Positions 1,929-23,626 of a stretch of 23,626 nucleotides of DNA are shown piece by piece. Every line of letters starts with the position of its first letter. Position 1 is the stretch's first letter. The notes under the pieces were generated by a model. It saw only the letters and a program-made list of their open reading frames with translations. It ran no database searches and had not been told where the DNA came from. Made by a program: the position numbers and the translations under genes. Origin of the DNA: a virus; the IMG/VR virus record IMGVR_UViG_3300005663_002365, positions 1 through 23,626 of that record. One strand, written 5' to 3'.

Positions 1929-3443
1929 TTAAGTAGTTCCAAAATTAAACCCGGCTTCTGCGGTGGTGCTTGCTATCCTTGCAAATCCACTTCTTTTATA
2001 CCGGAAAAATGTTTCTAATCTATCGGGATTAGTTGTACTGATCACAACGGTAATAGAATCTTGCATAAATGCAGGAGTAACAGTTAACGCCTTTTTAGAA
2101 AGGGATTCTGCATATTTATCAATTATTTGTTTCCATTGTTTGGGCTTTATAATCTTTTGAGCCGAAACGGTATCTTCATCTGCCGCTATTGCATGATCTA
2201 CAACGTTAATAAGTTCCAGTAAATAATATCCAAATCTGATATTAAAATCTATCATCAGATTCCTTGAATATCTAAATTGTGGAGGTGTTTCTCCTACCGG
2301 GTGATAGGTAGTAACAAAATCCTGTACCTGGTATTTTTCATTAACCAGGTCAACGGTAGAGCAGCCTTTTTTAACAATAGCATCCCTATTATCATAATCA
2401 GTCATAGAACCTATTGATATTGGTGTAGGCATATCAGGATAGGACCTGCCTGCTGTATCTAAATGTGGGTTATCTTGTGCCTGCCTGCCAAATAATAACG
2501 TTTCATTTGCTGCTGCCTCAAAGGGTAAGCCCGCACTTAAAGGAGCCGGACATATAGCTATTGTAACTTCATCTTTTCTGCTATCCGTAACACTTGAAGG
2601 ATCATCTGCTACCGACCCGGTAAGTGCTATAAAGGGTTTCATTATAATTCCTGAATACCTGCCTGTAGGGTTGTTAGGATCGGGAATACCGTTAAACGCT
2701 TCTAAAGTATCTAATATGCTGGTAACTGTTCCATAGCTGTTGACAACTATAGTATTCCAGTTAGTTCCAAATAAAGCTAATGCGGCAGAAATGCTTGGAG
2801 TTGCTGAGCCGGATTGAGTAGAATTAACTGCATAAGTTATTCCTAAGTCATTATCGTCGGTATCAACGGTTACTGAAATATCATCAGCGGTTAAGCCTTT
2901 CCACTTACTTGTGAGTGTTGCTTCGTAATCTGTTTCAGTTGCTAAAACAGGGCAGCCCGTAACGGCATTTATCGCATCTGCTATTTTAGCTGTAATATCT
3001 GCGGTTGTATCGTCTTTTAAAATATTAATATTATAAAATGTTCCGTCTATTCCGGCTCTGCCGGAAATTATTAAAGTATGTGTGCCATTGCCGGTTGCAA
3101 CTCCAACAGGCGTAACGGTCAAGACTTTTGCAGCTGCTGCCAGTGCAACGGCTTGTGGATAAACAACTGTAGGTATTCCTCCAATTCCACCACCTGCCAA
3201 CGGGCGTAAAATTCTCATTATATGATAAATAGGAGAGCCATATCCGTATAAGGTACCGGCTTGTTGGGCAGATGTAATTTCTTTTGCAGCAAGATCTAAA
3301 GTTGCCTGTTGTGCAGTATTGGCTTCTGCTAAAATGGCAATTCGCTGAGGTAAATTTGGCGTAACCTGAGCGAAATCACCTTTTATAATTTTATATCCTA
3401 CTATTCTTGATATTCTTTCCGAACCTACTGCATCACTATCCAT
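1929..3443 (-). CDS. Contractile tail sheath protein
   Basis: The chosen ATG (3441-3443) gives 504 residues starting MDSDAVGSERISRIVGYKII. An in-frame ATG 13 codons upstream (3482) would add MHFFVVYNSKIIY, which looks unlike the family's N-terminus and would overlap the divergent acyltransferase ORF. Features of Mu gpL-like sheaths include the N-terminal block PNLPQRIAILAEAN, the internal GTFYNINI region, and the C-terminal core GYYLLELINVVDHAIAADEDTVSAQ followed by DRLETFFRYKRSGFARIAS. The last block forms the sheath handshake domain in this family. The protein makes the outer contractile layer. Its upstream neighbours are divergent, so a promoter for the tail operon should lie near 3443-3540, but no TAnnTTTG box was found there. 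Confidence 0.9.
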   Translation of the reverse strand: MDSDAVGSERISRIVGYKIIKGDFAQVTPNLPQRIAILAEANTAQQATLDLAAKEITSAQQAGTLYGYGSPIYHIMRILRPLAGGGIGGIPTVVYPQAVALAAAAKVLTVTPVGVATGNGTHTLIISGRAGIDGTFYNINILKDDTTADITAKIADAINAVTGCPVLATETDYEATLTSKWKGLTADDISVTVDTDDNDLGITYAVNSTQSGSATPSISAALALFGTNWNTIVVNSYGTVTSILDTLEAFNGIPDPNNPTGRYSGIIMKPFIALTGSVADDPSSVTDSRKDEVTIAICPAPLSAGLPFEAAANETLLFGRQAQDNPHLDTAGRSYPDMPTPISIGSMTDYDNRDAIVKKGCSTVDLVNEKYQVQDFVTTYHPVGETPPQFRYSRNLMIDFNIRFGYYLLELINVVDHAIAADEDTVSAQKIIKPKQWKQIIDKYAESLSKKALTVTPAFMQDSITVVISTTNPDRLETFFRYKRSGFARIASTTAEAGFNFGTT

Positions 3444-3539
3444 ATATATGATTTTTGAATTATAGACAACAAAGAAATGCATGTTATTTTAAATAAAAAA
3501 ATTTTGGTTACAAAAAATGTATTATCTTTACCAAAAATT

Positions 3540-3986
3540 ATGATACATCCATCAGTTAAAATAGGTAAATATTGTATTATTGCTGAAAGTGCTATGATAG
3601 GTGAAAATACTATCATTAAAGACTTTTCTGTAATAGGAAAAAATGTTAGAATAGGAAAGGATTGTATAATCGGCAGGTATTGCGAAATAAGAGATGATTG
3701 TGAAGTTGGAGATGGAACTTCATTTGGCAGTCGATGTACATTGTCTGCCGGAACTATAATCGGTGATCATTGCGTAATAAAATATTCATTCGTAGCAACG
3801 GATACTAAAGATTTAACTACCCCTGGCAAAAAAACAACCTGCACAATAGGCGATAATGTATTAATTGGAGCTTGCGTTGTCCTCATGCCCGGCATAAATG
3901 TAGGTAATTTTGCTATAATCGGAGCAATGAGCCAGGTAAGGCATGATGTAGCTCCCGATAAAATCGTATATGGAAATCCATGTTAA
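3540..3986 (+). CDS. Left-handed beta-helix acyltransferase (hexapeptide repeat), divergent
   Basis: Starting at the ATG at 3540, the product has 148 residues and begins MIHPSVKIGKYCII. Nearly the whole chain is hexapeptide repeats of the [LIV]-G-x4 type, for example SVIGKNVRIGKDCIIG and later IGDNVLIGACVVLMPG. The family (LbetaH acyl- or acetyltransferases) moves acetyl or longer acyl groups from CoA or ACP to sugars. An earlier in-frame ATG at 3477 would add 21 residues (MHVILNKKILVTKNVLSL) and overlap the sheath leader, so I prefer 3540. It is the first of three plus-strand genes inserted against the tail operon's direction. The substrate cannot be told from sequence. A TATCTTTA at 3523-3530 resembles a -7 element but lacks a well-placed -33 partner. 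Confidence 0.85.
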   Translation: MIHPSVKIGKYCIIAESAMIGENTIIKDFSVIGKNVRIGKDCIIGRYCEIRDDCEVGDGTSFGSRCTLSAGTIIGDHCVIKYSFVATDTKDLTTPGKKTTCTIGDNVLIGACVVLMPGINVGNFAIIGAMSQVRHDVAPDKIVYGNPC

Positions 3987-4504
3987 CTGACAGACAAAAA
4001 TTTTGCTTAGAAAGAAGGGACAACTGGAAGCCCTCCATAAATATTGAGATACCTGAATTTGTTAGGTTAGGCAAAAATTGCCATATAGAAAAAAATGTTG
4101 TATTTGCCTTACATGGACTGGGAGCAGAATTTATTGACGATCAATGGATGTTAATCCCGCATAATGGAACAATAGAGATAGGAGACAACGTTACCATACT
4201 TGACAGCACAATCATAATGAGAGCTACAAAAGAGGCAACAAAAATCGGTAGTGGTTCTATATTAGGCGTAAAATCCCACATTGGACATAACGTGCAGATA
4301 GGCAAAAATTGTCTGATCGGGTCCTCAGCACTATTAGGAGGTAGTTCTAAGATCGGTGAAAATACCTACATCGGTGTTGGCGCCTTAATTAAAAATAAAA
4401 TCATTATAGGAAAAAAATGCACTATCGGTATGGGAGCAATTGTTACAAAAAATGTTCCCGATGGTGAAACGTGGGCTGGTGTGCCGGCTAATAAAATTAA
4501 TTAA
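3980..4504 (+). CDS. Left-handed beta-helix acyltransferase, second copy type
   Basis: The product has 174 residues, overlapping the previous gene by seven bases, which points to translational coupling. Residues 1-60 are a non-repeat head (MLTDRQKFCLERRDNW). From about residue 55 there are continuous hexapeptide coils such as GTIEIGDNVTILD and then SHIGHNVQIGKNCLIG. The C-terminal segment NVPDGETWAGVPANKIN has the GxPA motif seen near the end of many sugar O- and N-acetyltransferases. The two neighbours share the fold but are not close copies. They may act on different positions of the same glycan or form a mixed trimer; both are inference. Confidence 0.87.
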   Translation: MLTDRQKFCLERRDNWKPSINIEIPEFVRLGKNCHIEKNVVFALHGLGAEFIDDQWMLIPHNGTIEIGDNVTILDSTIIMRATKEATKIGSGSILGVKSHIGHNVQIGKNCLIGSSALLGGSSKIGENTYIGVGALIKNKIIIGKKCTIGMGAIVTKNVPDGETWAGVPANKIN

Positions 4505-4505
4505 A

Positions 4506-4709
4506 ATGAAAAATATTAGATTGATTAAAGTGGGATTTAAAAAACGCTCACTTATGTTTGATATAATTGATTTAGGAAATTTCAGCTTGATGGTTTTTCA
4601 ATTTTGGTTTTTTGGTTTTGGAATTGCATATCAATTAATAGATAGTTTGGAAAAAGATATTGCTGAATTTGAAAAGGTAAAAAAGGAATGGAATACGAAC
4701 AAAAGCTAA
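4506..4709 (+). CDS. Small membrane-associated protein, unknown
   Basis: The product has 67 residues, MKNIRLIKVGFKKRSL onwards. The ATG starts two bases after the acyltransferase TAA, so it is probably co-transcribed. A basic N-terminus leads into one very hydrophobic stretch at about residues 25-44 (GNFSLMVFQFWFFGFGIAYQL), long enough to cross the membrane once. A charged helical tail (EKDIAEFEKVKKEW) follows. It could anchor or assist the acyltransferases at the membrane. A longer frame from 4440 overlaps the acyltransferase heavily and is not favoured. Confidence 0.6.
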   Translation: MKNIRLIKVGFKKRSLMFDIIDLGNFSLMVFQFWFFGFGIAYQLIDSLEKDIAEFEKVKKEWNTNKS

Positions 4710-4737
4710 AAAAGTTGAAATGAATAAACTATAATTA

Positions 4738-4754
4738 AAAAATGTGTTATTTTT
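4738..4754. terminator. Weak AT-only hairpin between convergent genes
   Basis: AAAAAT (4738-4743) pairs with ATTTTT (4749-4754) around a five-base loop. It sits in the 48-base gap between the convergent plus-strand acyltransferase operon and the minus-strand operon. Position suggests a two-way terminator, but the stem has no GC pairs. Confidence 0.25.
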
Positions 4755-4757
4755 CTG

Positions 4758-4979
4758 TTATAATTTTTCCTTAAGCTCTTCTGCCTTATCCAAATACCAT
4801 TTTTCCTTTTCTAATTCCTGTTTCATATTATCCTTATGTCCTAACCGCATACGATATTTAAAGGCTGTTAATGTACAATAATTAATTGCTGCCCGGGCAC
4901 CCCATATAGAAACCATCATATCAATAACTTCTATTGGATATTGTTTATAATGGGATGGGTGTATTTTGTCTTTAGGCAT
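4758..4979 (-). CDS. DUF3310 family phage protein
   Basis: The product has 73 residues: MPKDKIHPSHYKQYPIEV onwards. It shows the DUF3310 pattern: a P-x-HY motif near the N-terminus, IEVIDMM, a central helix ending FKYRMRLGHKD, and the closing EKEKWYLDKAEEL. Members are small, common in phage genomes and sometimes labelled nucleotide kinase-like, but no activity is secure. The usual GNaiKYi stretch is changed here to NYCTLTAFKYRMR. The gene overlaps the end of its upstream neighbour by 49 bases. Confidence 0.8.
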   Translation of the reverse strand: MPKDKIHPSHYKQYPIEVIDMMVSIWGARAAINYCTLTAFKYRMRLGHKDNMKQELEKEKWYLDKAEELKEKL

Positions 4980-5647
4980 AATTTTGAAATTAAAAGTTTA
5001 GGATAAATTGTTTTTGTTTTATTATTAATATTTAGCGATCCAGCACCATTTTTTTTAACTTTTTTCTTTGACCAAACTGTAGCCATTCCTACCCTATCTC
5101 CTTTACACGAAAATAATTCACCTTGTTTTGTAATATAATATCCTATACAATTCTCATATCCTTTTGCTATGGTCGGCAAATAGATCCCATCTTTAGGAAT
5201 TTTAGGGATAACTATTTGAATCAAATCATATTTTTTGGCCCCGTTTCTTTTTTTCAATAATACATTTTTCAATTCTGCAATATTTTTTTCAGTAATATCC
5301 AACTTTTTTTGTCTTAATATCTGCATAAGATACCATTTTGCTAAATTTTTTCTTCCCCTGCTTTTAACTTCCTTGTTTCGTTTTCTTAATTCTTCAGCCA
5401 ATTCTGGATGAGATTTTATGTAATAATAAGTTGCCCTCCCAATAGCATTCCTTGTTTCAACAATAAGATTATCAAGGCGTAATTCTTTTTTCTTTTCTGT
5501 TAATCTTATTAAGCCATCCTGAACGGCATCTTGTCCTTCATACGTAGAAAGCAAAACAGAATATTCAGGTCTTCTTAATGTTTTATTAGCATACCGAACA
5601 GCTCTGTTATATTCTATCTCTGTTATCATTATTTCCAAATTATTCAA
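4931..5647 (-). CDS. Unknown protein, possibly sigma-like head with NUMOD-like tail
   Basis: The product has 238 residues. The first ATG is at 5647, and an alternative at 5629 gives MITEIEYNRA. The N-terminal half (about 1-80) is helical, and EGQDAVQDGLIRLTEKKKEL is loosely reminiscent of region 2 of extracytoplasmic sigma factors. The middle is very basic and lysine-rich. Residues 170-190, GYYITKQGELFSCKGDRVG, resemble the short beta motif at the start of NUMOD4 and related phage endonuclease modules, but no HNH follows. A DNA-binding role is plausible. The family is not recognised with confidence. It lies between a glycosyltransferase and DUF3310. Confidence 0.6.
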   Translation of the reverse strand: MNNLEIMITEIEYNRAVRYANKTLRRPEYSVLLSTYEGQDAVQDGLIRLTEKKKELRLDNLIVETRNAIGRATYYYIKSHPELAEELRKRNKEVKSRGRKNLAKWYLMQILRQKKLDITEKNIAELKNVLLKKRNGAKKYDLIQIVIPKIPKDGIYLPTIAKGYENCIGYYITKQGELFSCKGDRVGMATVWSKKKVKKNGAGSLNINNKTKTIYPKLLISKLCLKTKYTHPIINNIQ

Positions 5648-5650
5648 AAC

Positions 5651-5670
5651 TTAGGACATTTTAGGACATT
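5651..5670. repeat. Tandem 10-bp repeat in an intergenic leader
   Basis: TTAGGACATT occurs twice without a gap (5651-5660 and 5661-5670), then a third copy starts with TTA. It lies four bases upstream of the 5647 start, within the 32-base gap after the glycosyltransferase stop. It may be a binding site or a slippage product. Confidence 0.6.
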
Positions 5671-5679
5671 TTATAGCTA

Positions 5680-6315
5680 TTACCTAAAATAATTCCAATA
5701 AAATTCATAACTAATAGGGTCTAATGTTCTTTTTAGGAATCCGTTATCTTGAAATTTAAATCTATGTAACCTATCTACATGGCTTCTGCCTCCTAATTTC
5801 CCTATTCCATGCTTTATTCCCAAGGAATACAATTTATCGGGCTTAAATACTTTGTAATTTAAGGTCCGGTATAAATGAAGATCGGTATATGTTTCATAAT
5901 CCTCACACCATTCAAAGTTCATGTCGGGCTTTATTAGCGTATTCATTGCTGCAGAACGTTGATCATGCAGCATTTCAAAGTACTTTTTTATCTTTATATT
6001 GTAATATATAGTATGATTTGTACCAAAAAGATCGGGCTTGCCATGTTCTACCCACTTATCTGTCATGTATCTTAGATAATCCGGAGAATACCAATCATCA
6101 TTTTCCCAAAATGCAATAATATCAAGCCCCTTTTTCCTTAAAATATCATATCCTTTACGATACCTGAATGTAATATCCGGCTTATCTGATTTTGGTTTTT
6201 CACTTATTAAAACTGTACAATACGGCTTTAGAGTCTGTGCTTCTAACATCCTGAAACTATTGGCAAGCAATTTAAAACGATCACCTCGATCTGGAATGAT
6301 AATACCTACTTTCAT
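5680..6315 (-). CDS. GT-A glycosyltransferase, paralogue of the first domain of the 12277 gene
   Basis: The product has 211 residues, beginning MKVGIIIPDRGDRFKLL, a family 2-like N-terminal beta strand. The acidic metal/nucleotide-sugar site is ENDDWY at residues 71-76. It aligns along its length with residues 60-270 of the product of 10889-12277. Shared blocks are the DITFRY/DITYRY strand, ENDDWY/EDDDWY, PDLFG/PDIFG, the IYY motif and GIKHG (166-170). It therefore probably transfers a sugar from a nucleotide-sugar donor. It starts 31 bases beyond a strong terminator that closes the upstream gene, so it may depend on read-through or on a promoter not recognised here. Confidence 0.82.
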   Translation of the reverse strand: MKVGIIIPDRGDRFKLLANSFRMLEAQTLKPYCTVLISEKPKSDKPDITFRYRKGYDILRKKGLDIIAFWENDDWYSPDYLRYMTDKWVEHGKPDLFGTNHTIYYNIKIKKYFEMLHDQRSAAMNTLIKPDMNFEWCEDYETYTDLHLYRTLNYKVFKPDKLYSLGIKHGIGKLGGRSHVDRLHRFKFQDNGFLKRTLDPISYEFYWNYFR

Positions 6316-6345
6316 CGGAATTTGTTAATCATTAAAATAAAAAAT

Positions 6346-6375
6346 CCCCGTCAGATGCTTAGCCGTCTGACGGGG
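6346..6375 (-). terminator. Rho-independent terminator
   Basis: CCCCGTCAGA (6346-6355) and TCTGACGGGG (6366-6375) form a perfect 10-bp stem with a 10-base loop. In the minus-strand sense the stem is followed directly by ATTTTTTATTTTA. It lies 13 bases past the stop of the 6388-6990 gene and is the best intrinsic terminator in the window. On the plus strand no T run follows, so it acts for minus-strand transcription only. Confidence 0.85.
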
Positions 6376-6387
6376 TGGTAGTACCTC

Positions 6388-6990
6388 TCATCGGAATCTA
6401 TTTTTGATTTTATTTATTTCTATCTGTCTTTTTGCCTGGTATGCCTGATCAGTATTGCCTAAACTCTTTTGCTCCCCATGTCTGCGATACCTTTGTAAAT
6501 AAGAATTGCAATAATTCAATTTACAGCCTTTAGAAAGTAATCTCATATTAAACTCGTATTCTTCACCTAACCAAAGAGTTTCATCAAACCCGCCAAATCT
6601 GTCAAAGCAATCCCTTCTATACAATACAGTACCCCCATGAATTACGTTTAAGTTAATTATATCTTGTAAAGTTGGATTCTTAATAGTTGGAATATAGGGC
6701 TTTTCTAACCCATTTGACCAGAAATTGATAGCATTACCATGAATAAAATCAAAACCCTGGATGGCTTTTAAGCTATCTTCTATGCAATTTGGAGTTAATA
6801 AATTATCTTCGGAACAGAAGCGGATATAATCACCTGTTGCTTTTTCTAATCCCCGGTTAATATTATAGGAAACGCTTTTGTCTGATTGACTTAATATAAA
6901 CTCTGTCTGATAGGTTTGATTCTCTATGCTTTCAATTGCCTGCTTTAAAAAGCCCCTATCTTCATTACATGGAATAATGATACTAACCAT
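6388..6990 (-). CDS. Family 2 glycosyltransferase
   Basis: The product has 200 residues starting MVSIIIPCNEDRGFLKQAI, the classic GT2 opening strand and helix (QAIESIENQTYQ). The donor site is FCSEDN (58-63) in place of the usual DDD-type triad, with E61 and D62 as likely acidic ligands. The acceptor half has IHGGTVLYRRDCFDRFGGFDE (118-137) and GEEYEFNMRLL (142-152), matching the GGFDE...ED-x-(D/E)-x-x-x-R pattern of GT2 enzymes. It overlaps the acyltransferase gene by eight bases and ends in a strong terminator. It would act in the cytoplasm on nucleotide-sugars; the acceptor is unknown. Confidence 0.92.
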   Translation of the reverse strand: MVSIIIPCNEDRGFLKQAIESIENQTYQTEFILSQSDKSVSYNINRGLEKATGDYIRFCSEDNLLTPNCIEDSLKAIQGFDFIHGNAINFWSNGLEKPYIPTIKNPTLQDIINLNVIHGGTVLYRRDCFDRFGGFDETLWLGEEYEFNMRLLSKGCKLNYCNSYLQRYRRHGEQKSLGNTDQAYQAKRQIEINKIKNRFR

Positions 6991-7351
6991 TTCTTAAGAA
7001 TTTAGCAGGATTACCTACCATGACATAATTATCCTTGACATCTTCTAAAACTACTGCACCCACTCCGATAGTTACATTATTGCCTATCTTGACCTTGTTT
7101 TTTATCATGCAGCCAATTCCTAAATAACAATTATCACCAATTGTAACACTTCCACCAAGTATTGTTCCGGCTATGATAAGACAATGCTTGCCTATGTTTA
7201 CATTATGTGCTATGTGGCAATTATAATCTATCTTGGTACCTTCACCTATACGAGTATCATCAAGCGTTGGTCTAACAATATTGGTTCCTGAAAAAATTTC
7301 AACCCTTATTAGCTTATATGCTCCTAAAATAATGTTCACTGTCATACCCAA
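6983..7351 (-). CDS. LpxD-like hexapeptide acyltransferase
   Basis: The product has 122 residues, and the start may be M1 or M3 (MTVNIILGAYKL). The segment RPTLDDTRIGEGTKIDYNC (27-45) followed by HIAHNVNIGKHCLI closely follows the catalytic-histidine coil of LpxD, the UDP-3-O-acyl-glucosamine N-acyltransferase. The rest is hexapeptide coils ending VMVGNPAKFLRN. Unlike LpxD (about 340 residues) it lacks the N-terminal uridine-binding domain and the C-terminal helices, so it is a minimal acyltransferase. It is coupled by overlaps to two glycosyltransferases and lies near a PIG-L deacetylase. This fits N-acylation of a freed sugar amine, which is inference. Confidence 0.85.
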   Translation of the reverse strand: MGMTVNIILGAYKLIRVEIFSGTNIVRPTLDDTRIGEGTKIDYNCHIAHNVNIGKHCLIIAGTILGGSVTIGDNCYLGIGCMIKNKVKIGNNVTIGVGAVVLEDVKDNYVMVGNPAKFLRNG

Positions 7352-7947
7352 TTCTTTAAAAATTCAGGAGGATTTAAATTTCTTGTGCCCCTATAATTAT
7401 GTTCTATGTAATCTTTGACCGGAAACTCAATAAGCATAGAACTTTTACTTTGTTCGTATAAATCTAACATCGTCTTGATGCAAGGAGCGCCATGATGTGC
7501 GAATTTAATATATTTTAGATATTGAATTTTATTTATAAGCATAAAATAAGGATGCAAATAAGGTATCCCAATAGTAACATTTCTTCCGTTTTTATCCGTA
7601 TAGCATATTTCTCCTATACCATAACTTGAATCTTTAAGATCAGCTTGCATTTTTTCTATTATACCCCCCTTTTTCATCTCAATATCGCTATCAAAAAGCA
7701 ATGCATGCTTTGTCAGGCAACTTGCAAGACCATAATTTAACCCCTCTCCATGTCCTATGTTGCCCCCTATGTGGTAAGTAGTGCAATTATCATAAGGATT
7801 TGATTTTAAATAAACATCACATTTATGTCCCGGGGTGGACCCGTTAACAATTATTAAAGGCAATTCGGGATAGAATTTTCTTACAGATTTTATGGCTCTA
7901 TCAATAAGCCCCTTAGTATTATAGACAACAGTTATTCCGGTTAGCAT
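7342..7947 (-). CDS. GT-A glycosyltransferase (GT2-like)
   Basis: The product has 201 residues. The N-terminal part, MLTGITVVYNTKGLIDRAIKS, and the following PLIIVNGSTPG form the first two strands of a GT2 fold. The acidic site is FDSDIE, with DSD at 86-88. GHGEGLNYGLASC before it matches the helix that contacts the nucleotide in GT2 enzymes. It differs clearly from the other glycosyltransferases nearby, which suggests a distinct linkage. It overlaps the LpxD-like gene by ten bases and follows the methyltransferase by 11 bases. Confidence 0.82.
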   Translation of the reverse strand: MLTGITVVYNTKGLIDRAIKSVRKFYPELPLIIVNGSTPGHKCDVYLKSNPYDNCTTYHIGGNIGHGEGLNYGLASCLTKHALLFDSDIEMKKGGIIEKMQADLKDSSYGIGEICYTDKNGRNVTIGIPYLHPYFMLINKIQYLKYIKFAHHGAPCIKTMLDLYEQSKSSMLIEFPVKDYIEHNYRGTRNLNPPEFLKNWV

Positions 7948-7958
7948 AAGTAAGTAAT

Positions 7959-8579
7959 TTAGAATAATCGTAATTTAATCTTTTCTAAGTTAATCCTTTT
8001 CACAGCTGCCTCGTAATAGTCTTTGTCAATTTCAAATCCCCAAAATTCATATCCTAACCTGTGGGCTGCTATGGCACTGCTACCTGAGCCCAAGTGAGTA
8101 TCTAAAATCTTATCGCCTTTTTTGGCATAATTCATTAATAACCATTCATAAAGTTCAATAGGTTTTTGGGTAGGATGTATTTTCTTTATAGCATTTTGTT
8201 TCCCATCATTAGCTTTAAACTTAAATATTCTTGTCCTTGAATTATCACTTATCCAAGCAAGTTCTGCATCAGAGAAGCCATTGGTATGGCCATTAAAATC
8301 CTTATCCCAAATTACCCAAGATTTTACTGCAGGAAGATAATTTGTGAAATAATTACCACCCCATATTATTTGTTTTTTACTAATCCTGAATAGGTCTGCG
8401 AAATATTTATATGATGGTATTTTTTTATTCCATTTTTTACTTTCATTTTTGAATTTTGTATTATAATGCTTTATTGAGCCTATACCATATGGAGGATCCA
8501 CAATGGCAAGTTCAAAGAAATTATCAGGAAATTCCTGCATACTTTCTATACAATCCCTATTATATATTCCGGCTTTCAT
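7959..8579 (-). CDS. DNA methyltransferase, N6-adenine/N4-cytosine, beta-class order
   Basis: The product has 206 residues. The catalytic motif IV is DPPYGIG at 28-34, and the AdoMet-binding motif DTHLGSGSSA is near the C-terminus (160-169) after HPTQKP (135-140). Motif IV before motif I is the beta-class arrangement (D12/DAM-unlike solitary phage enzymes). DPPY allows adenine N6 or cytosine N4 methylation. The target recognition region between residues 35 and 130 is short. No restriction endonuclease gene is adjacent, so it is probably an orphan phage enzyme that protects viral DNA. It overlaps the HAD gene by 20 bases. Confidence 0.93.
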   Translation of the reverse strand: MKAGIYNRDCIESMQEFPDNFFELAIVDPPYGIGSIKHYNTKFKNESKKWNKKIPSYKYFADLFRISKKQIIWGGNYFTNYLPAVKSWVIWDKDFNGHTNGFSDAELAWISDNSRTRIFKFKANDGKQNAIKKIHPTQKPIELYEWLLMNYAKKGDKILDTHLGSGSSAIAAHRLGYEFWGFEIDKDYYEAAVKRINLEKIKLRLF

Positions 8580-8922
8580 TTATTAATTTATATATTTCTT
8601 CCCAATCTTCTGGGATACCCCCAAGATTTCTGTCATCTATATAAATATCTGCATAGATTTTGGGAGATGGTTGGAAAAGTATTTGTTCGTATGACGCATT
8701 TACATTGACCAGAATCCCTTCCAGCCCTTTTAATGTTAACCAGTCATATGCAGCTATAAGCTCTGATCCGCCCCTACATGTCCAGATAATTAGTGTATGA
8801 CCTTCGCTGAGCAATCTTTTTAACACATTAACCACGTTAGGTTTAGTTGCTCCTATTTCCGGATACTTATGATCGACAATTGTTCCGTCAAAATCGATTG
8901 CTATTATTAGCTTATTTTTCAT
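8560..8922 (-). CDS. HAD-superfamily phosphatase (BT0820-like)
   Basis: The product has 120 residues, MKNKLIIAIDFDGTIVDH onwards. Motif I is DFDGT with nucleophile D10 and acid/base D12. Motif II is the threonine in WTCRGG (48), and the last motif is KIYADIYIDDRNLGG, with K88 and D96/D97. There is no cap domain, so the enzyme is small and could act on a bulky or polymeric substrate. The closest remembered group is the short Bacteroidetes/phage HADs of the BT_0820 type. In this setting it could dephosphorylate a sugar intermediate or a nucleotide; neither is proven. It shares one base (TAATG) with the upstream GT-B gene. Confidence 0.88.
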   Translation of the reverse strand: MKNKLIIAIDFDGTIVDHKYPEIGATKPNVVNVLKRLLSEGHTLIIWTCRGGSELIAAYDWLTLKGLEGILVNVNASYEQILFQPSPKIYADIYIDDRNLGGIPEDWEEIYKLINESRNI

Positions 8923-9863
8923 TATGATATTACCAAAAGTATTTGCTTTAATCGTTCACCTGTTGCCTTATAACTATGTTTTTCTTTAACCCAGTTGTAT
9001 ATATGAGTTTGTAATTCACTAATATCTTGCTTTGACATAGAATTTAAATATACAATTGCATCTTTAAATTCCTTTTCATTAGCAACCAATATCATTGGAC
9101 ATTCTCCGTATATTTTTTCGTAAATATCTTTATTAAGATTTTGGGTAATAACGATCTTCCCGCAAGAGGCTGCCTCTAAAGCCGCATATCCATAATGACC
9201 ATATTCAAAGCCTTCAATTTCGGGCTTAAAGAGTTCTATGTACACATCGCAATCAGAAATTCTTTTCATATTTTCCGAATGGGGGACTGACTTTTTAGAA
9301 TAAATAAAATCAAAATTGCCTTCACCGGGGCAGCCGTTGCTACTTATTTCATCCATCATTGAAACGATCTTATCGGTTCCTTTTATTTCCGGGTTACTTG
9401 GATAGTGTGCTATTTTTATAGGACTATTTACCTGGTGCTTAAATGCCGGATGGTCTTTAATATCAATACATCTCTCAACATATTGCATATTTTTAGCTCC
9501 TAACTTAAAAAATTCACAATGATTGGTTAAGGTCCCATGAACCATATTGAATGCTCTATTGCACCATGCAGCCCTTTTCCTGTAAAAATTGCCTGTATGA
9601 AAAACAAATATTTTTGCTGACGGTAATTTATATTTTAATACCGCAGTATAAGAATTAATACAACTATGAAATACTACTATTGTATCAGCTGTTCTAATTA
9701 ACGAATTTATTTCTGATCTTAATTTTATCAGACTTTCTGATTTGTATTTAAATCCATGGGGGACCGCCTTAACATCAATACAATCAACGCCAACAAGCCT
9801 TAAAGCATTAGCCATATTGTGCATATGATTTGCCCAGTCGTTATCGCATAAAAATAGTATCAT
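8922..9863 (-). CDS. GT-B fold glycosyltransferase (GT4-like)
   Basis: The product has 313 residues. The C-terminal Rossmann half shows the GT4 signature: DVYIELFKPE (206-215) followed by EYGHYGYAALEAASCGKIVI (220-239), in which the two glutamates surround the nucleotide-sugar as in the E-x7-E motif. The N-terminal half begins MILFLCDNDWANHMHNMANAL with the acceptor-side HMHNM helix. It is shorter than typical GT4 enzymes (about 370). The ATG overlaps the PIG-L stop (ATGA). The first 12 codons recur upstream of the PIG-L gene as a vestige (10450-10500). Confidence 0.87.
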   Translation of the reverse strand: MILFLCDNDWANHMHNMANALRLVGVDCIDVKAVPHGFKYKSESLIKLRSEINSLIRTADTIVVFHSCINSYTAVLKYKLPSAKIFVFHTGNFYRKRAAWCNRAFNMVHGTLTNHCEFFKLGAKNMQYVERCIDIKDHPAFKHQVNSPIKIAHYPSNPEIKGTDKIVSMMDEISSNGCPGEGNFDFIYSKKSVPHSENMKRISDCDVYIELFKPEIEGFEYGHYGYAALEAASCGKIVITQNLNKDIYEKIYGECPMILVANEKEFKDAIVYLNSMSKQDISELQTHIYNWVKEKHSYKATGERLKQILLVIS

Positions 9864-10453
9864 ACTATCTGCCTTATTACTTCAAAACATTCAGCATATT
9901 TGCATCCCGCTTGCAAGCCCCTATAAATTGCATTAGATACAATAAATTCTACATCCATATATGGTCTGTGTTGCTGTGATTTATACTCTTTTAAAGCCAG
10001 TATCTTTTTATCAAGATGCCTTTTTCCTATTTTAAAAAACAAATTAGGAGAAAATTTAAAATGATTATGTGGAAAATCGTATCCGTAAATATTGATGTTT
10101 TTAAAGGCTCTCAATGTTTCTTCATAAATAACTTTATGATCCTGGTGTATGTCGTGTTGAGAAAATATAAATACCGTATCAATGTCAATTTTCTTTTTTA
10201 TTGAAATCATTGCATCTAAAATTCCCTGCCTGTTTTTGTGGAAAAATCTTACTTTATTATTTAATATAATTATCTTACCATTAACACCCAGACTACGACA
10301 AGATATAAGCATTTGATGTTTTAACTTTTTTATGCCGCAATAGGAAAATGCAACGATATTAACTACGTTACCCTCCTCTATTAATCTTGAAATAGTGGCT
10401 CCGGCTCCAAATTCCGCATCGTCAGTATGAGCGCTAATAAATAAATAATTCAT
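9860..10453 (-). CDS. PIG-L (LmbE-like) N-deacetylase
   Basis: From the ATG at 10453 the product has 197 residues, MNYLFISAHTDDAEFGAG. AHTDDAEFG (8-16) is the zinc-binding (A/P)HPDD-x-E motif of the family. The second zinc/catalytic motif, SQHDIHQDH (97-105), matches H-x-D-x-x-x-H. These enzymes remove acetyl from N-acetylglucosamine units in lipids, thiols or antibiotics. An earlier in-frame ATG (10474) would add MGKSDNR, which is the out-of-frame reading of a vestigial gene, so it is rejected. Next to a GT-B enzyme and close to an LpxD-like acyltransferase, it would free an amino group on a sugar. Confidence 0.92.
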   Translation of the reverse strand: MNYLFISAHTDDAEFGAGATISRLIEEGNVVNIVAFSYCGIKKLKHQMLISCRSLGVNGKIIILNNKVRFFHKNRQGILDAMISIKKKIDIDTVFIFSQHDIHQDHKVIYEETLRAFKNINIYGYDFPHNHFKFSPNLFFKIGKRHLDKKILALKEYKSQQHRPYMDVEFIVSNAIYRGLQAGCKYAECFEVIRQIV

Positions 10454-10500
10454 TCTATTATCTGATTTGCCCAATCGTTATCACATAAAAATAATATCAT
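10450..10500 (-). pseudogene. Vestigial 5' end of a second GT-B gene
   Basis: A 16-codon reading frame, MILFLCDNDWANQIIE, ends in a TGA that overlaps the PIG-L ATG. Its first 12 codons give exactly the same peptide as the start of the GT-B gene at 9863. The DNA differs at three codons (3, 6 and 9), all silent. Both copies also begin with the same ATGA overlap with the upstream gene. This looks like the stump left when a related glycosyltransferase was deleted or exchanged. Confidence 0.75.
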
Positions 10501-10892
10501 GATTGTAATTCTTCTCCGGTTAATGCGAAATATAAGTTTTGAAGTTGGTGGACGTATTTAATTTCTGATGTGTATCCTAATCTTGCATCATAATGTCCTT
10601 CAATACCTAATTGATATATTCCATTCTTAAAGGGCACTATTTCTATATAGCAATAATAACCTTCTACTAAATTACACCAATGTCCACTTTCGTTTTTCTG
10701 TAACCCAAACTTCTTTAACCATTCTTCTGTGAGGGGCAATCCATATAATTCTTTTGTTGGGGTTGTATAGCCTCCGCTTAATTGTGTCATTAATAAGGTT
10801 TCGTTTTCATCAAATTTAGCCACTTTATAAGCCCCTCCAATACTTTCATTTGTTCCAACTAAATTTCCTATTCTTAATTCTGTTGCTTTCAT
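10497..10892 (-). CDS. Conserved Bacteroidetes phage protein, unknown function
   Basis: The product has 131 residues. It opens MKATELRIGNLVGTNE and closes KYVHQLQNLYFALTGEEL. Between them is the GLPLTEEWLKKFGLQK block. This set of three blocks is familiar from small proteins found over and over in Bacteroidetes phages and prophages, and is one reason for assigning the host. The middle is beta-rich, with YYCYIEIVPFKNGIYQL. No catalytic motif is visible. It sits between two glycosyltransferase-type genes with ATGA overlaps on both sides (10889-10892 and 10497-10500). Confidence 0.85.
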   Translation of the reverse strand: MKATELRIGNLVGTNESIGGAYKVAKFDENETLLMTQLSGGYTTPTKELYGLPLTEEWLKKFGLQKNESGHWCNLVEGYYCYIEIVPFKNGIYQLGIEGHYDARLGYTSEIKYVHQLQNLYFALTGEELQS

Positions 10893-12277
10893 TCTATTCT
10901 CCCCCTACTTACGTTAAATGTTTTAACAATTATCTTATCCAGCCATACACATTTAACCCCGGAATCAAATACGCGACTTATAAATTCAAAATCCCCCATC
11001 CTTTCGTGAGCAAAATGATGGATAAATTTAAAATAAATTTCTTTGCTTACAAAAAAACAGCTGCCTCCTATTGAGCCCCTTATTGGACTTTTCTCCCAAA
11101 CGTTATCTTGCGGATAAATACCACCCCCCCTTATGCCTATCCATGCCCGGACAAAGATAACATCCGCTTGAATATCCTTTATTTCATTGAATATATCATA
11201 ATCAACTAAGTAATCATCATCATCCAATAAGTAAACAAATTTACCTTTTATTTCTGATAATACTAACTGAAATGAGCTATTGGCATAATATAAACCCATT
11301 CCCTTTTTATCTTTAATAAATATCTGCTCAAAATCACCTTTCATCTTAGATATTGAACGCTGATTTTTCTTAAATCCTTCAGGTCTTTTATCTCCATGGA
11401 CCCGGGTAATCACAGAAACTATAGGAATTTTACCATAACTTTTTTTCGTGATCTCATAATTGTCCCTAATAGCCATGAGTTTATAAAAAGAAACGTCTTG
11501 TCCTACCATATTTTTTAGTTTGTTAGAATCGAGATCCATAATAGTATATCTATCCCATTTTTTTTGATGTCCACCGCCGCCTACATTAGTAAAGCCATGT
11601 TTTATGCCTACACAAATAGGCTTACCGGGTACAAATGTTTTTCCCCGATTTGATTTCCATAACTCTTGGTCTAAATACGGACAGTCATAATCAAACTCGC
11701 TTCTAAGCACATTCCGGGTTACAAGTGTAGCCATCATGCTTGCTCTTTTTCTATGGACAAATACTGCATACTGCTTTGTAATTATATGATAATAAATACT
11801 TTGCCCTATGCCAAAAATATCTGGTCTATCAGCTTTCTCCCACTTTTCGATTAAAGTCTCAATATAATTATCAGCATACCAATCATCGTCCTCCCAGCAA
11901 ATAACTACATTACATCCTTTATTGAATAATTCATTAAATCCCAAATGATAACGATAAGTAATATCCACTCCACTAAATAAAGTTTTATCATTTACAATCC
12001 TGATATACTTTGGTTTTATTGTTTGTCGTACTACTAAAGACTTCGCTTTACCCAAAAAATACGGTCTATTCCCCTTTGTCGGGATCACTACACCAATTAC
12101 AATCGCTGATTCAGGCTGATTTATCTTTACAAGAAACCCATTTTTTACCAATCTAACAGCCTGCCCTGGCGGAAAATCCTTATCGCTTACGATTGTTAAA
12201 GAGCCGTCTGATTTTTTTCTTGTAAATATCTTATTAAAAGCTCCATTTACCGTTAAAGATTTTAGTTTATATCTCAT
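10889..12277 (-). CDS. Two-domain GT-A glycosyltransferase with N-terminal phage-like domain
   Basis: The product has 462 residues. Residues 1-55 are a small beta domain with SDKDFPPGQAVRLVKNGFLV, similar in feel to short phage structural proteins that end in a 'LIKNG' type motif. Residues 57-270 are a GT-A domain with VVIPTKGNRP (63-72), EDDDWY (129-134) and GIKHG (224-228), homologous to the gene at 5680-6315. Residues 283-462 are a second GT2-type domain with PIVSVITRVHGDKRPEG and LDDDDYL (351-357), and an acceptor-side MGDFEFISRVFD. Two catalytic sites suggest addition of two sugars or alternating polymer synthesis. The head domain could target the enzyme to the virion; this is inference. 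Confidence 0.85.
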   Translation of the reverse strand: MRYKLKSLTVNGAFNKIFTRKKSDGSLTIVSDKDFPPGQAVRLVKNGFLVKINQPESAIVIGVVIPTKGNRPYFLGKAKSLVVRQTIKPKYIRIVNDKTLFSGVDITYRYHLGFNELFNKGCNVVICWEDDDWYADNYIETLIEKWEKADRPDIFGIGQSIYYHIITKQYAVFVHRKRASMMATLVTRNVLRSEFDYDCPYLDQELWKSNRGKTFVPGKPICVGIKHGFTNVGGGGHQKKWDRYTIMDLDSNKLKNMVGQDVSFYKLMAIRDNYEITKKSYGKIPIVSVITRVHGDKRPEGFKKNQRSISKMKGDFEQIFIKDKKGMGLYYANSSFQLVLSEIKGKFVYLLDDDDYLVDYDIFNEIKDIQADVIFVRAWIGIRGGGIYPQDNVWEKSPIRGSIGGSCFFVSKEIYFKFIHHFAHERMGDFEFISRVFDSGVKCVWLDKIIVKTFNVSRGRIE

Positions 12278-12507
12278 TGGAATTCCCCATTAATTATTTT
12301 ATCATAAATTTGGTCAGCTATGGCTTTCATTTTATCGCAATACTTTTTATCTTTTCCATAAGAAGCGTAACCAAATTCGCCTTTCTCAAAATTAAAACTA
12401 ATAATAATAACTCCATCCCTTCCATGTTTTTTAGAAAGAACTTCACAATCTTTTTTGGTTATCCAATTATCTGAATAATCTGAAATATTTCCGTCTTTAA
12501 TCATCAA
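12274..12507 (-). CDS. Small protein, unknown
   Basis: The product has 77 residues, MMIKDGNISDYSDNWITKKD onwards; a second Met follows at once. It is charged and soluble with a beta hairpin-like middle (GVIIISFNFEKGEFGYASYG) and a C-terminal helix (CDKMKAIADQIYDKII). It overlaps the start of the large glycosyltransferase by four bases (ATGA) and its upstream neighbour by 11. I do not recognise a family. Confidence 0.65.
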   Translation of the reverse strand: MMIKDGNISDYSDNWITKKDCEVLSKKHGRDGVIIISFNFEKGEFGYASYGKDKKYCDKMKAIADQIYDKIINGEFQ

Positions 12508-12691
12508 TTTCTATGAATGCTAATATAATAACTAAACCTAAAATAAAACAAACAAACACAAGTGATATTACCAATCTTTCCCCTATTGTCAACCTCGCTA
12601 TAAATACATCCCATTCAATAAATATAGCACAGCCCCAAACCAGTAATAAGCTCACTACAACATAAATTGTTAAAAATATTGATTTTTTCAT
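12497..12691 (-). CDS. Small two-helix membrane protein
   Basis: The product has 64 residues. Two hydrophobic spans are evident: about residues 5-25 (IFLTIYVVVSLLLVWGCAIF) and 40-60 (LVISLVFVCFILGLVIILAF). They are joined by a short loop with WDVFIARLTIGERL, and the protein ends EIDD. It begins eight bases after the terminase stop. Small double-span proteins in phages can be holins, but the position beside terminase is not diagnostic and no lysin gene is in view. The role is left open. Confidence 0.6.
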   Translation of the reverse strand: MKKSIFLTIYVVVSLLLVWGCAIFIEWDVFIARLTIGERLVISLVFVCFILGLVIILAFIEIDD

Positions 12692-16867: not shown

Positions 16868-16939
16868 TTATTTTATCAGCTTTTCAAGTTCTTTTTTAGG
16901 AATTTTACGCACTATCTTAAATTTGCAAACCCTGAACTT
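16868..16939 (-). pseudogene. C-terminal remnant of a gene related to the pentapeptide-repeat gene
   Basis: Twenty-three codons read KFRVCKFKIVRKIPKKELEK... up to TAA (16868-16870). They match the last residues of the pentapeptide-repeat gene (KFRVQKFRVIRKIPKEELRK..., stop at 17489) at 15 of 22 positions. No start codon belongs to this piece. The first 23 bases overlap, in another frame, the 3' end of the HNH gene. It marks the downstream border of the HNH insertion or the debris of a duplicated gene. Confidence 0.7.
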
Positions 16940-17483
16940 CAAACTTAATTATTTTAGTATATTTTTTACTATTACAACCACGACAAAGTGGTTGAATATT
17001 CTCAATATTATTTGAACCACCCCTACTAATAGGAATAATATGGTCTTCTGTTAGTTTTGTTTCGGGCTCCCCTTTTAAACAACATGGACAAGTCCAATTA
17101 TATTGTGCCTTTAGATTTTCCCATTCACCCAATGTATGCGAACCAATTGCTCCCCTTATTTTTACCCGTCGTTGTTGTGTATAAAAATTTACTTTTTTTT
17201 TATTATCTTTCCTATATCTGTGGCGATAAGTTTTCATATCTTTTGTTCTACCATCTTTCCAATTGCGGGCATCTTTACCTATTTTCCCCTGTAAAGATTC
17301 GCTAACTTTCTTTCTCGCTGAAACACTGTGATTTTTCCCCTTCATCCAAGTTTCTTTGCCTTTTTGAGCTTTACCAATATTTTCTTTATGTTTAGCAGAA
17401 AACTTTTTTCCCTTATGAGCGAAGCTCATTTTTCTTTTAGTTTCGTTAGAATGAGGTTTACGTTTATAAATTCCTGATGGCAT
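16917..17483 (-). CDS. HNH homing endonuclease with NUMOD3 repeats
   Basis: The product has 188 residues. The N-terminus carries NUMOD3-type DNA-binding motifs (SNETKRKMSFAHKGKKFS at 12-29, and related KHKENIGKAQKGK and ARKKVSESLQGK). The HNH domain is at 130-175: C132-x2-C135, the catalytic DH at 147-148, the N-rich SRGGSNNIENIQPL, and C167-x2-C170. Cysteine pairs would hold zinc. Such free-standing enzymes spread by cutting alleles that lack them. It lies between the intact pentapeptide gene and a remnant of a similar gene, and its last codons (FEVQGLQI) overlap that remnant in another frame. Confidence 0.92.
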   Translation of the reverse strand: MPSGIYKRKPHSNETKRKMSFAHKGKKFSAKHKENIGKAQKGKETWMKGKNHSVSARKKVSESLQGKIGKDARNWKDGRTKDMKTYRHRYRKDNKKKVNFYTQQRRVKIRGAIGSHTLGEWENLKAQYNWTCPCCLKGEPETKLTEDHIIPISRGGSNNIENIQPLCRGCNSKKYTKIIKFEVQGLQI

Positions 17484-18490: not shown

Positions 18491-18748
18491 TCACCTGCGT
18501 TTTATGTGGTTGTATATAATATCAAGCTCTTTTAACTTCAATTCAATCAGTTCATTTAGTACAATTCGCTCCTCTGGAGTAGTATTTTTTGACATAGCCC
18601 CCAATCCCCTCATGCTATTTTCCGTAATGAGTCGTAATTGTACCCAGCTTTGCTGTTTGATAGCCCCCTTTTGAACGCAAAGGGGCTTTCTATAGTTCCT
18701 ATCAATAAAGGAACTGAATTGCTTAGAACTGAGTTTAACGCCTTTCAT
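18491..18748 (-). CDS. Small protein, unknown
   Basis: The product has 85 residues, MKGVKLSSKQFSSFIDRNYR onwards. It has a basic N-terminal half and a C-terminal charged helix (ERIVLNELIELKLKELDIIY). Its ATG shares one base with the stop of the HNH gene (TAATG), so the two may be coupled. Function unknown. Confidence 0.6.
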   Translation of the reverse strand: MKGVKLSSKQFSSFIDRNYRKPLCVQKGAIKQQSWVQLRLITENSMRGLGAMSKNTTPEERIVLNELIELKLKELDIIYNHIKRR

Positions 18749-19254
18749 TACAATATTTTTAATTGTCCATTCATCGGAACTACTGCTTTCCAGATTTTAT
18801 AATTAATAATATTAGTAATACTTGTTGGGCATAAATTGTATTTGGATGCTATTTTTGCATGACTATAATTTTTTGTAGTATAAAGCTCACGGATTTCTTT
18901 TGCTATTTTATAATTTATTTTTGCGTGGCTCAATCCGTTTTTAACAGCGTGTATTACATTTTCTTGCCGGGTAGCCCATTCCAAATTTTCAGTCCTATTA
19001 TCTATCTTTATTCCGTTTTTGTGATTAACCTCTGGTTTGTTATATGGATTTGGAATAAAACATATTGCTACTAATCTTTGTATACGTTTTGTTTCTGTTA
19101 TCCCATTTTTTGTTAAGCCAACTAATAAATATCCCTTACTATTTGGAGGTGTTTTTAATATTCTATTTTTCCCACGCTTTAAACTTTTGATTCTTCCAAT
19201 ATTACTTATTTGATAATGTCCTTCGTATCCTTTTATGTCTTTCCAAATTTCCAT
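18748..19254 (-). CDS. HNH homing endonuclease with NUMOD4 and helix-turn-helix
   Basis: From the ATG at 19252-19254 the product has 168 residues. Residues 1-40 are NUMOD4 (EIWKDIKGYEGHYQISNIGR). Residues 58-107 are the HNH_3 core, with FIPNPYNKPEVNHKNGIKID, H78, N80, and the NRTENLEWAT block. Residues 115-155 are a helix-turn-helix (HAKIASKYNLCPTSITNII) that likely reads the target. Upstream ATGs in frame (to 19413) would add residues encoded by the leader hairpin and promoter, so they are rejected. The gene has its own promoter and structured leader, unlike its operon neighbours. Confidence 0.9.
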   Translation of the reverse strand: MEIWKDIKGYEGHYQISNIGRIKSLKRGKNRILKTPPNSKGYLLVGLTKNGITETKRIQRLVAICFIPNPYNKPEVNHKNGIKIDNRTENLEWATRQENVIHAVKNGLSHAKINYKIAKEIRELYTTKNYSHAKIASKYNLCPTSITNIINYKIWKAVVPMNGQLKIL

Positions 19255-19277
19255 AATATAAAAACCCGACTTAGCAT

Positions 19278-19379
19278 TGCTTAACGGTCGCTCAATAGAA
19301 ACCGTATCCATACTTTTCAGATAGGATATGCTTATCGGGTATTTTTTCGGATTATCAATATTGAGCGTTTGGTTAAGCA
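19278..19379 (-). promoter_or_regulatory. Structured 5' leader (inverted repeat) of the HNH gene
   Basis: TGCTTAAC (19278-19285) and CGCTCAATA (19289-19297) pair with TATTGAGCG (19359-19367) and GTTAAGCA (19372-19379). The 17 base pairs have a 3/4-base internal loop and enclose 61 bases. In minus-strand sense the outer arm begins about where transcription from the 19383-19413 promoter should start. The HNH start lies about 23 bases past the other arm. This could gate translation or stabilise the message. Confidence 0.65.
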
Positions 19380-19382
19380 TTA

Positions 19383-19413
19383 CAAAGATAAACATTATTA
19401 TCATAATACACAA
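19383..19413 (-). promoter_or_regulatory. Bacteroidetes-type promoter for the HNH gene
   Basis: Minus-strand TATCTTTG (19390-19383) matches the -7 consensus TAnnTTTG. A TTG (19413-19411) lies exactly 20 bases upstream, as in the two other promoters in the window. The predicted start near 19376 leaves a leader of about 120 bases. Confidence 0.7.
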
Positions 19414-22641: not shown

Positions 22642-23254
22642 TGGTAAAAAAATCCCGTTCCGTATTTTATGCCTCAAATTAAGCCGGTGGATTTTCTTGT
22701 TGGTGATCTGGCTACGCACCGCCCTGCGGAGTTCCGCTTTGCAGTACCTGCAAATTTTTCCGAAAAAAAACTCAAAATTCCAACCCGTGGGCTGCTCTTT
22801 TTATATTTCTTTTCCCTTTTACACCCTTGCCGTGAGAAAAGAAGCAAAAGAATAAAAAGAGAATGCACAAAAAATTTTCGTTAGAAACTTTTTTAAGCAT
22901 CGGCATATAGACAAGAAAAATGTCTTTGTGCATTTTTTTTTATGCTAAGGGAAGCAGGGCGTATTTAAATAGCTTAGCTCTCTGGGGCGGTGGTGTGGGT
23001 GGCTGTGCTGGGCTTCTTTGGTATGGGTTTGAGTGGCATTGGAGGCATGGGCTCTTTTTTGTTTGGCTTGGGTGGCTTGGGAGCGGGGATCTTCGGTGCG
23101 TGGGCAGAGCCGGTACAGACCCTATTGAGCACAGCACACTATCCCTGTTGTGTGCTGGACGAAATATTGGGGCTGTGTGGCTGTGCGTGAGCATATTGGT
23201 CGCGTGGGCGTGGACGGATGGGTTGCCTGCCGCGTGGGCTTTGGAATGGCTTTA
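22642..23254. other. Non-coding, GC-richer, palindrome-dense region
   Basis: No convincing gene is present: the open frames give low-complexity glycine-, proline- or lysine-rich peptides. Instead there is a series of hairpins: GCGGA-GT-TCCGC (22726-22737), TTTGCAG-TAC-CTGCAAA (22738-22754), a 9+7 bp pair of arms at 22795-22813 and 22846-22861, the terminator-like stem at 22862-22934, and CAGCACAC/GTGTGCTG (23132-23139 with 23150-23157). From 22980 to 23100 the plus strand is strongly G-rich, with repeated GGCTTGGGTGGCTTGGG-like units. It could be a replication or packaging locus, a structured RNA, or a dispersed host repeat. Confidence 0.6.
22862..22941. terminator. Terminator-like double hairpin, possible small RNA end
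   Basis: AATGCACAAA (22862-22871) and TTTGTGCATT (22925-22934) form a perfect 10-bp stem. On the plus strand a run of nine T's (22933-22941) follows, as in an intrinsic terminator. A competing inner hairpin AGACA/TGTCT (22909-22913 with 22921-22925) lies against the outer arm. On the minus strand the stem is also followed by a T-rich stretch, so it may stop transcription both ways. Confidence 0.5.
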
Positions 23255-23626
23255 CTATTTGCTTTCACCTCTTGATCTTTTTTCGGAAAATTCTTCAATC
23301 ATATTGACAATATCTTCTTTTGTTTTATCAATGGTACTATCAACGGCAATGTTTATTTCTTTCTTAATGATCCCCCGATACTTTGAAATAGCCTTATTAT
23401 TCATTCCTACCTCTTTTGCCAGGATTGTTAAGACCTTATCTAAGCTGTTTTCAAATTCAGCAATAATATTTTTAGAATGCTGTGCAAATAAAATCTTTAC
23501 CATTTCAGTAGGAAGAACCTCTCCCCTCATTTTTTCTTCTTTGATAAGTGCTATCCTGGTATCAACCTGCTTTTTAGCAAGCTCTGCCTTCTTTATTTTT
23601 TTGTCGAGACTTATCCATTCTCCTGG
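23255..23626 (-). CDS. Possible terminase small subunit / Nu1-like protein, C-terminal part
   Basis: The frame is open from the window edge to the stop at 23255-23257 (123 codons, 5' end missing). It reads EWISLDKKIKKAELAKKQVD, then LIKEEKMRGEVLPTEMVKIL, then a helical remainder ending EEFSEKRSRGESK. The lysine-rich helix followed by (R)GE-(V/L)-(V/L)-P-x-x-x-(V) and a long helix is the pattern seen in DNA-packaging proteins of the gpNu1/small-terminase type. It lies on the terminase large subunit's strand but 8.5 kb upstream of it, so the assignment is tentative. An internal ATG at 23528-23530 is not the real start, because the frame continues above it. Confidence 0.55.
   Translation of the reverse strand, partial: PGEWISLDKKIKKAELAKKQVDTRIALIKEEKMRGEVLPTEMVKILFAQHSKNIIAEFENSLDKVLTILAKEVGMNNKAISKYRGIIKKEINIAVDSTIDKTKEDIVNMIEEFSEKRSRGESK

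Follow-up and report, generated by a model that had tools for sequence, protein, structure and literature searches.

A candidate virion-glycosylation island with a head-domain glycosyltransferase between the terminase and tail sheath genes of uncultured Bacteroidota-type phages

Chloroviruses and mimivirus encode sets of glycosyltransferases (GTs) that build a complex capsid glycan without the secretory route of the cell, and the gtr modules of temperate phages such as P22 and SfX alter glycans using a flippase and membrane-bound transferases. We know of no domain common to a GT and a capsid-adjacent protein in chloroviruses or mimivirus. Among phages, virion glycosylation by phage GTs is known from mycobacteriophages (PMC11256854; PMC12363180; PMC12619734), including Che8 gp110, Corndog gp38, and Myrna (Freeman et al., 2023, as cited in PMC11256854, PMC12363180, and PMC12619734). 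Analysis of the viral contig IMGVR_UViG_3300005663_002365 (the window, a linear contig of 23,626 bases that is the entire public record) revealed a block of sugar-modifying genes between the genes for the terminase large subunit (TerL) and the tail sheath. Judged from sequence, this block is on balance best explained as a virion-glycosylation island, probably for the head, in which phage enzymes would use host sugar donors. The first-pass annotation had named host surface polysaccharide, the virion, and modified DNA as candidate targets; the virion is favored since a double GT in the block carries a domain of a capsid-adjacent head protein, and the host surface and DNA fit less well.

In the mycobacteriophage systems phage-encoded GTs place glycans on capsid and tail-tube proteins, much as is proposed here for the island. 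In this comparison by description, one or few GTs per phage have been reported in the mycobacteriophages, whereas the islands described here contain several enzymes (deacetylase, acyltransferases, and methyltransferases among them), are exchangeable, lie among structural genes, and include a GT fused to a head-protein domain. Phage-directed virion glycosylation is thus already known from mycobacteriophages; a literature search, with most subscription papers outside its scope, turned up neither glycan islands at fixed structural junctions nor GTs fused to a head-protein domain. Chloroviruses and mimivirus share the idea of self-glycosylation but are unrelated viruses of eukaryotes. The gtr modules are likewise phage genes that alter glycans, but the islands lacked a flippase and none of 209 island open reading frames (ORFs) had two membrane stretches, six having one weak hydrophobic stretch. 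None of 50,697 cultured phage records matched the double GT or any of three further island enzymes, so that this island biology is at present known from uncultured phages and a small number of bacterial genome bins only. The window TerL was closest to those of the Cellulophaga phiSM and Flavobacterium FCL-2 (Ficleduovirus) phages (37-38% identity), which share the same sheath, tube, and head gene types, and FCL-2 gp23 is a stand-alone form of the post-capsid domain described below. These phages differ in having their head genes between TerL and sheath in the usual order, with no glycan island annotated in that stretch.

The first ~55 residues of the window double GT resembled the N-terminus of a small protein whose gene immediately follows the major capsid gene in the nearest relative, IMGVR_UViG_3300005253_000562 (G001; 47,987 bases, near-complete). 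For three phages, the GT N-terminus was compared with every ORF of the same genome and the matches were ranked; a small protein of the capsid region was the top non-self match each time, in G001 (82 ORFs, z=6.4), G006 (82 ORFs, z=6.9), and G008 (locus L013; 29 ORFs, z=23, score 122). G008 belongs to another, unrelated phage group, and the domain shared between its GT and its head-region protein differs from that of G001. A profile built from six post-capsid domains only and searched against 3,054 distinct ORFs (E<1e-4) gave 29 matches, consisting of 12 post-capsid proteins, 17 island proteins, and nothing else; the window double GT was matched with E=3e-8 and 5e-8 and L011 with 3e-16. Aligning the profile of GT N-termini with that of post-capsid N-termini gave 99.6% and E=3.5e-24 (hhalign). 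The catalytic parts of the domain-bearing island proteins formed four groups, implying at the sequence level a repeated fusion of the domain to enzymes, since four catalytic types carry it. Types 1 and 2 matched GT2 in Pfam, mostly below the cut-off, and the L065 and L105 types are called GTs by context only because they had no Pfam or PDB match. One of the 17 island proteins, L180, lies beside the sheath with no WE(N/D)DDWY GT nearby and was scored 'unclear' by the classifying script, and its catalytic part clustered with type 2. Profile matches to phrog_6286 were found for FCL-2 gp23 (E=7e-30), L105 (9e-7), and L059 (3e-6), and none for G001 or the window GT. The domain is predicted to adopt a small beta-rich fold (AlphaFold predicted local distance difference test, pLDDT, 86), and Foldseek against viral models returned small phage proteins that carry no functional names and had E>0.01 despite probabilities close to 1. 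Bacillus YqbF (2hjq) was not used as a match (E=8.6 only).

In the proposed mechanism, soluble phage GTs would, late in infection, move sugars from host nucleotide-sugar donors onto a particle protein, most likely of the head. Several transferases would lengthen the glycan chain, the PIG-L enzyme would strip acetyl groups from it, and acyltransferases, joined in relatives by methyltransferases, would decorate it. At least one transferase would be led to its target by the N-terminal domain common to the post-capsid protein; particles being assembled in the cytosol, a GT with a head domain would be placed on head precursors. The sequences directly show the gene content, location, turnover, selection, and domain sharing; from these we infer binding of head components by the shared domain, a virion protein as acceptor, and the timing of expression. 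The island would occupy a preferred place among structural genes, and exchange of its gene set would yield related phages with different coats.

The block was found at the same place in G001 and was also conserved in L011 and L014. Orthologous glycan genes of the window and G001 had ratios of nonsynonymous to synonymous substitution rates (dN/dS) of 0.07-0.20, compared with 0.06-0.13 for TerL, sheath, and tube; the glycan genes are thus under purifying selection, and this together with the conservation in G001, L011, and L014 excludes a chance assembly. In minus-strand order, the window contains early genes, TerL, the glycan block, tail sheath, and tail tube and runs into the tape measure gene. 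The features of the site are as follows.

1932-3443, minus strand: tail sheath, left border of the site (phrog_165)
3477-3986 (start 3540 equally possible), plus strand: left-handed beta-helix acyltransferase (PF00132 above cut-off)
3980-4504, plus strand, opposite to the block: left-handed beta-helix acyltransferase (PF00132 above cut-off)
4758-4979, minus strand: DUF3310 protein, an ordinary phage gene ending the block, equally placed in G001
5680-6315, minus strand: WE(N/D)DDWY-family GT-A glycosyltransferase, the type found in the islands retrieved (by homology and fold)
6388-6990, minus strand: GT-A glycosyltransferase, GT200 type (PF00535 above cut-off; 72% identity in G001)
6983-7351, minus strand: left-handed beta-helix acyltransferase without the N-terminal third that is present in G001 (PF00132 above cut-off)
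7342-7947, minus strand: GT-A glycosyltransferase, GT201 type (PF00535 above cut-off; 91% identity in G001)
7959-8579, minus strand: N6/N4 DNA methyltransferase, probably a passenger (PF01555 above cut-off)
8560-8922, minus strand: HAD-type phosphatase, probably a passenger (phrog_1238, E=2e-29; under Pfam cut-off)
8922-9863, minus strand: probable GT-B glycosyltransferase (weak Pfam match)
9860-10453, minus strand: PIG-L family N-acetylglucosamine deacetylase (PF02585, 52.1 bits vs cut-off 28.2)
10497-10892, minus strand: phrog_10066 protein, which also occurs outside islands
10889-12277, minus strand: double GT-A glycosyltransferase with catalytic domains WEDDDWY and LLDDDDY (by homology)
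12113-12277, minus strand: N-terminal domain of the double GT, ~55 amino acids, common to the post-capsid protein (phrog_6286-like)
12497-12691: membrane protein of 64 amino acids
12703-14721, minus strand: TerL, right border of the site

The first-pass annotation had counted four GT-A genes with five GT-A domains, and these are borne out, two passing Pfam GT2 and the others being assigned by homology or fold. The double GT scored 22.9 bits against the GT2 cut-off of 23.3 yet is clearly homologous, and its G001 orthologue is 89% identical with dN/dS 0.12. The GT at 5680-6315 had no Pfam match but is homologous to the N-terminal half of the double GT and is predicted to have a GT-A fold (AlphaFold pLDDT 94; Foldseek to SpsA, probability 1.0). 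The single GT-B gene proposed earlier is present and is a conserved neighbor of GT genes in L011, L014, L121, L123, and L124, but its assignment is weak (Pfam group 1/4, E=0.0015, 19.3 bits vs cut-off 27; no match in a PDB sequence search). All three proposed acyltransferases exceeded the PF00132 cut-off of 27 bits (111, 71, and 58 bits), but the third is truncated (122 vs 184 amino acids in G001). Kin of the acyltransferase at 3477-3986 adjoin the sheath in L065/L155 and L131, and that at 3980-4504 has 42% identity to the full-length acyltransferase of G001. These two plus-strand genes were absent from G001 at that place, reflecting either insertion in the window or loss in G001. The PIG-L gene retains the AHTDD and HDIHQDH motifs (74% identity in G001); it, the 64-residue membrane protein, the HAD gene, and the DNA methyltransferase all lie between TerL and sheath, as had been described. 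The phrog_10066 protein had dN/dS 0.70 and is perhaps outside the glycan pathway.

Inclusion of the HAD phosphatase and DNA methyltransferase in the pathway, as first proposed, was rejected. In G001 the place of this pair is taken by genes for a YopX-like protein, an HNH/AP2-like endonuclease, and an S-adenosylmethionine (SAM) methyltransferase, and G001 carries in its early region, outside the block, an HAD gene 84% identical to that of the window followed by another methyltransferase; the window pair is accordingly treated as a passenger. The expectation that head genes belong at the block site did not hold either, as the portal, S49-type protease, decoration, and major capsid genes of G001 (assigned through homology with the annotated gene order of phiSM/FCL-2 and by gene maps) are located downstream from the baseplate genes, and in many relatives TerL adjoins the sheath. 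The block thus does not take the place of the head genes, which in this lineage form a module elsewhere. That the block is a phage-borne island for glycan building and editing that borrows host donors was upheld, with no flippase, polymerase, or multi-pass membrane protein in the islands and no nucleotide-sugar synthesis gene seen in the window; the soluble enzymes would consequently act in the cytosol with host donors.

Related islands were surveyed in 79 loci from viral contigs retrieved with the WE(N/D)DDWY GT family, a set biased toward the query GT. According to the gene maps of these loci, the islands occupied three kinds of site, all among structural genes. Site A, between TerL and sheath, was found in 33 loci having both genes, some of them near-duplicates. 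Site B, before the portal gene, was represented by L099, L100, L105, L111, L112, and L125. Site C, which lies between the tape measure and head protease genes of another phage group, included L013-L016, L113, L115, L117, L121-L124, L126, and L127, among others. The genomes G011 (L112/L164) and G012 (L105/L210-L211) had their island at B and an empty site A; G001, G002, G004, G005, and G006 had theirs at A, with none seen before the portal. Contents varied among GT-A types, FkbM and other methyltransferases, hexapeptide acyltransferases, PIG-L, and GT-B, and accessory island proteins mostly had no Pfam match, with a few assigned to FkbM and GT2. A second set was picked by tail sheath alone to avoid the GT bias, favoring close sheath relatives. 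Among its 46 loci with TerL and sheath (a few of them near-duplicates), the junction was empty in 24, carried glycan genes in 18, and carried other genes in four, the glycan calls using GT-family profiles from the same island group, which other kinds of glycan gene could escape. The first-pass annotation held that genes coming and going independently across relatives would refute the island. Single-gene turnover was indeed strong, but the site still held mostly sugar genes (18/22 occupied junctions), for which reason the turnover looks like diversification of one function and not random cargo.

As side observations on island-like loci, L180 469-1848 is an island-like stretch beside the sheath encoding a protein that starts MCGI, like glutamine-dependent amidotransferases. 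Many islands contain unassigned ORFs of similar size (440-490 amino acids), which might amidate sugars.

Several observations weigh against virion glycosylation. The head domain gave nothing significant against PDB in either a sequence search or Foldseek. The post-capsid protein is a presumptive head protein, and its family, phrog_6286, has no known function. The domain was present in only about a third of the complete site A islands, being absent from those of G002, G004, and G005, although G005 has the post-capsid protein. The window contig itself contains no head genes, the match being to the post-capsid protein of G001 and not to one of its own. One relative exists as a prophage integrated into a Bacteroidetes genome bin, where it sits at tRNA-Lys, encodes an integrase, and is bounded by a 16-base repeat, and most relatives have the island on the other strand together with a promoter-like element of its own; both findings also fit lysogenic conversion. 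This element, TAnnTTTG, a motif of Bacteroidota promoters, was present in 22 of 24 divergent junctions compared with 21% in shuffles that kept base composition only.

The prophage, whose island is intact, and the promoter-bearing divergent islands are the points that speak for host-surface modification, in which capsule or lipopolysaccharide would be altered during lysogeny or late infection and superinfection blocked as in serotype-converting phages. The gene mix and turnover likewise resemble O-antigen loci, and this reading has been given in the literature to a gut phage group that encodes a GT within its structural genes (PMC8008677). Nevertheless, this explanation is unlikely, as no island contained a flippase, membrane GT, or polymerase, island genes were co-oriented with structural genes in the window, G001, and the tape measure protein (TMP)-protease group, and the head-protein domain on the GTs would be left unexplained.

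That the TerL-sheath junction simply tolerates insertions, sugar genes gathering there as morons with no common target, is improbable. It would agree with the strong gene turnover, with homing-endonuclease genes close by, and with the four of 22 occupied junctions that were not glycan, such as L163 (2445-9536), where replication-type genes on the opposite strand, and no sugar genes, fill the junction. It is opposed by the sugar genes in the other 18 junctions, by sugar islands at two more sites among structural genes, including one in an unrelated group of phages, by the purifying selection, and by repeated fusion to the head domain. Least probable is DNA glycosylation, in which the transferases would build glycans on modified phage-DNA bases as known for other phage GTs with diverse glycans (Pyle et al., 2024, as cited in PMC12619734), since despite a C5-type methyltransferase by motif in G001 (L006:6782-7744) and a Tet/JBP oxygenase above the family cut-off in the island-bearing relative G013 (L209, G013:C1:42029-42391), where DNA modification may exist additionally, the hydroxymethyl base is unaccounted for in nearly all relatives, Tet/JBP being missing in 9/10 and a thymidylate-synthase-like enzyme in 9/9 records (window and several relatives incomplete), and since the late-region location and head domain also oppose it.

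Other features of the window and G001 were recorded. In the window, early genes separate a terminase small subunit fragment (23255-23626) from TerL over a distance of 8.5 kb, whereas G001 has the two side by side, which looks like a rearrangement or an assembly join; a GC-richer stretch unlike the remaining window (~22660-23250) falls between this fragment and TerL. At 864-936, in the gap between the phrog_4648 gene and the tape measure gene, an AT-rich inverted repeat is predicted to form a long hairpin (z=-4.6). Searches for RNA families and tRNAs gave no match, and within the window the promoter-like motif showed no excess over chance (38 seen vs 36.6 expected). HNH homing-endonuclease-like genes were scattered (window 16917-17483 and 18748-19413; L003 7522-8031; L005 3539-4105), some inside the G001 glycan block. 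In the tail region of G001, two proteins (L005 4112-5689 and 5702-6808) have many tandem repeats of ~35 amino acids (WTARSAAEANxWxSVTFGNGLFVAVS), probably variable in copy number, and a TnpB-like transposon nuclease gene (L005 8780-10018) lies between two baseplate hub genes.

Returning to virion glycosylation, glycosylated phage particles have so far been shown in few phages only, and the role of a phage GT, whether on host surface, DNA, or virion, is usually guessed. A broader proposal, held tentatively and at somewhat less than even odds, is that Bacteroidota-type phages have repeatedly fused GTs to a capsid-associated docking domain and that exchangeable islands coat the head with lineage-specific, edited oligosaccharides. 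As part of the same proposal and with equal reserve, such coats might be the phage counterpart of giant-virus glycan coats, targeted by a borrowed structural domain. The gene set of the island is swappable across the window phage and dozens of uncultured relatives. If the explanation is true, multi-step, editable virion glycosylation would be common among uncultured Bacteroidota-type phages, and the head-domain fusion would allow the target of a phage GT to be recognized by a rule that is direct and testable. Island exchange would then cause phage coats to vary like bacterial O-antigens, with consequences for adsorption, persistence, and immune recognition.

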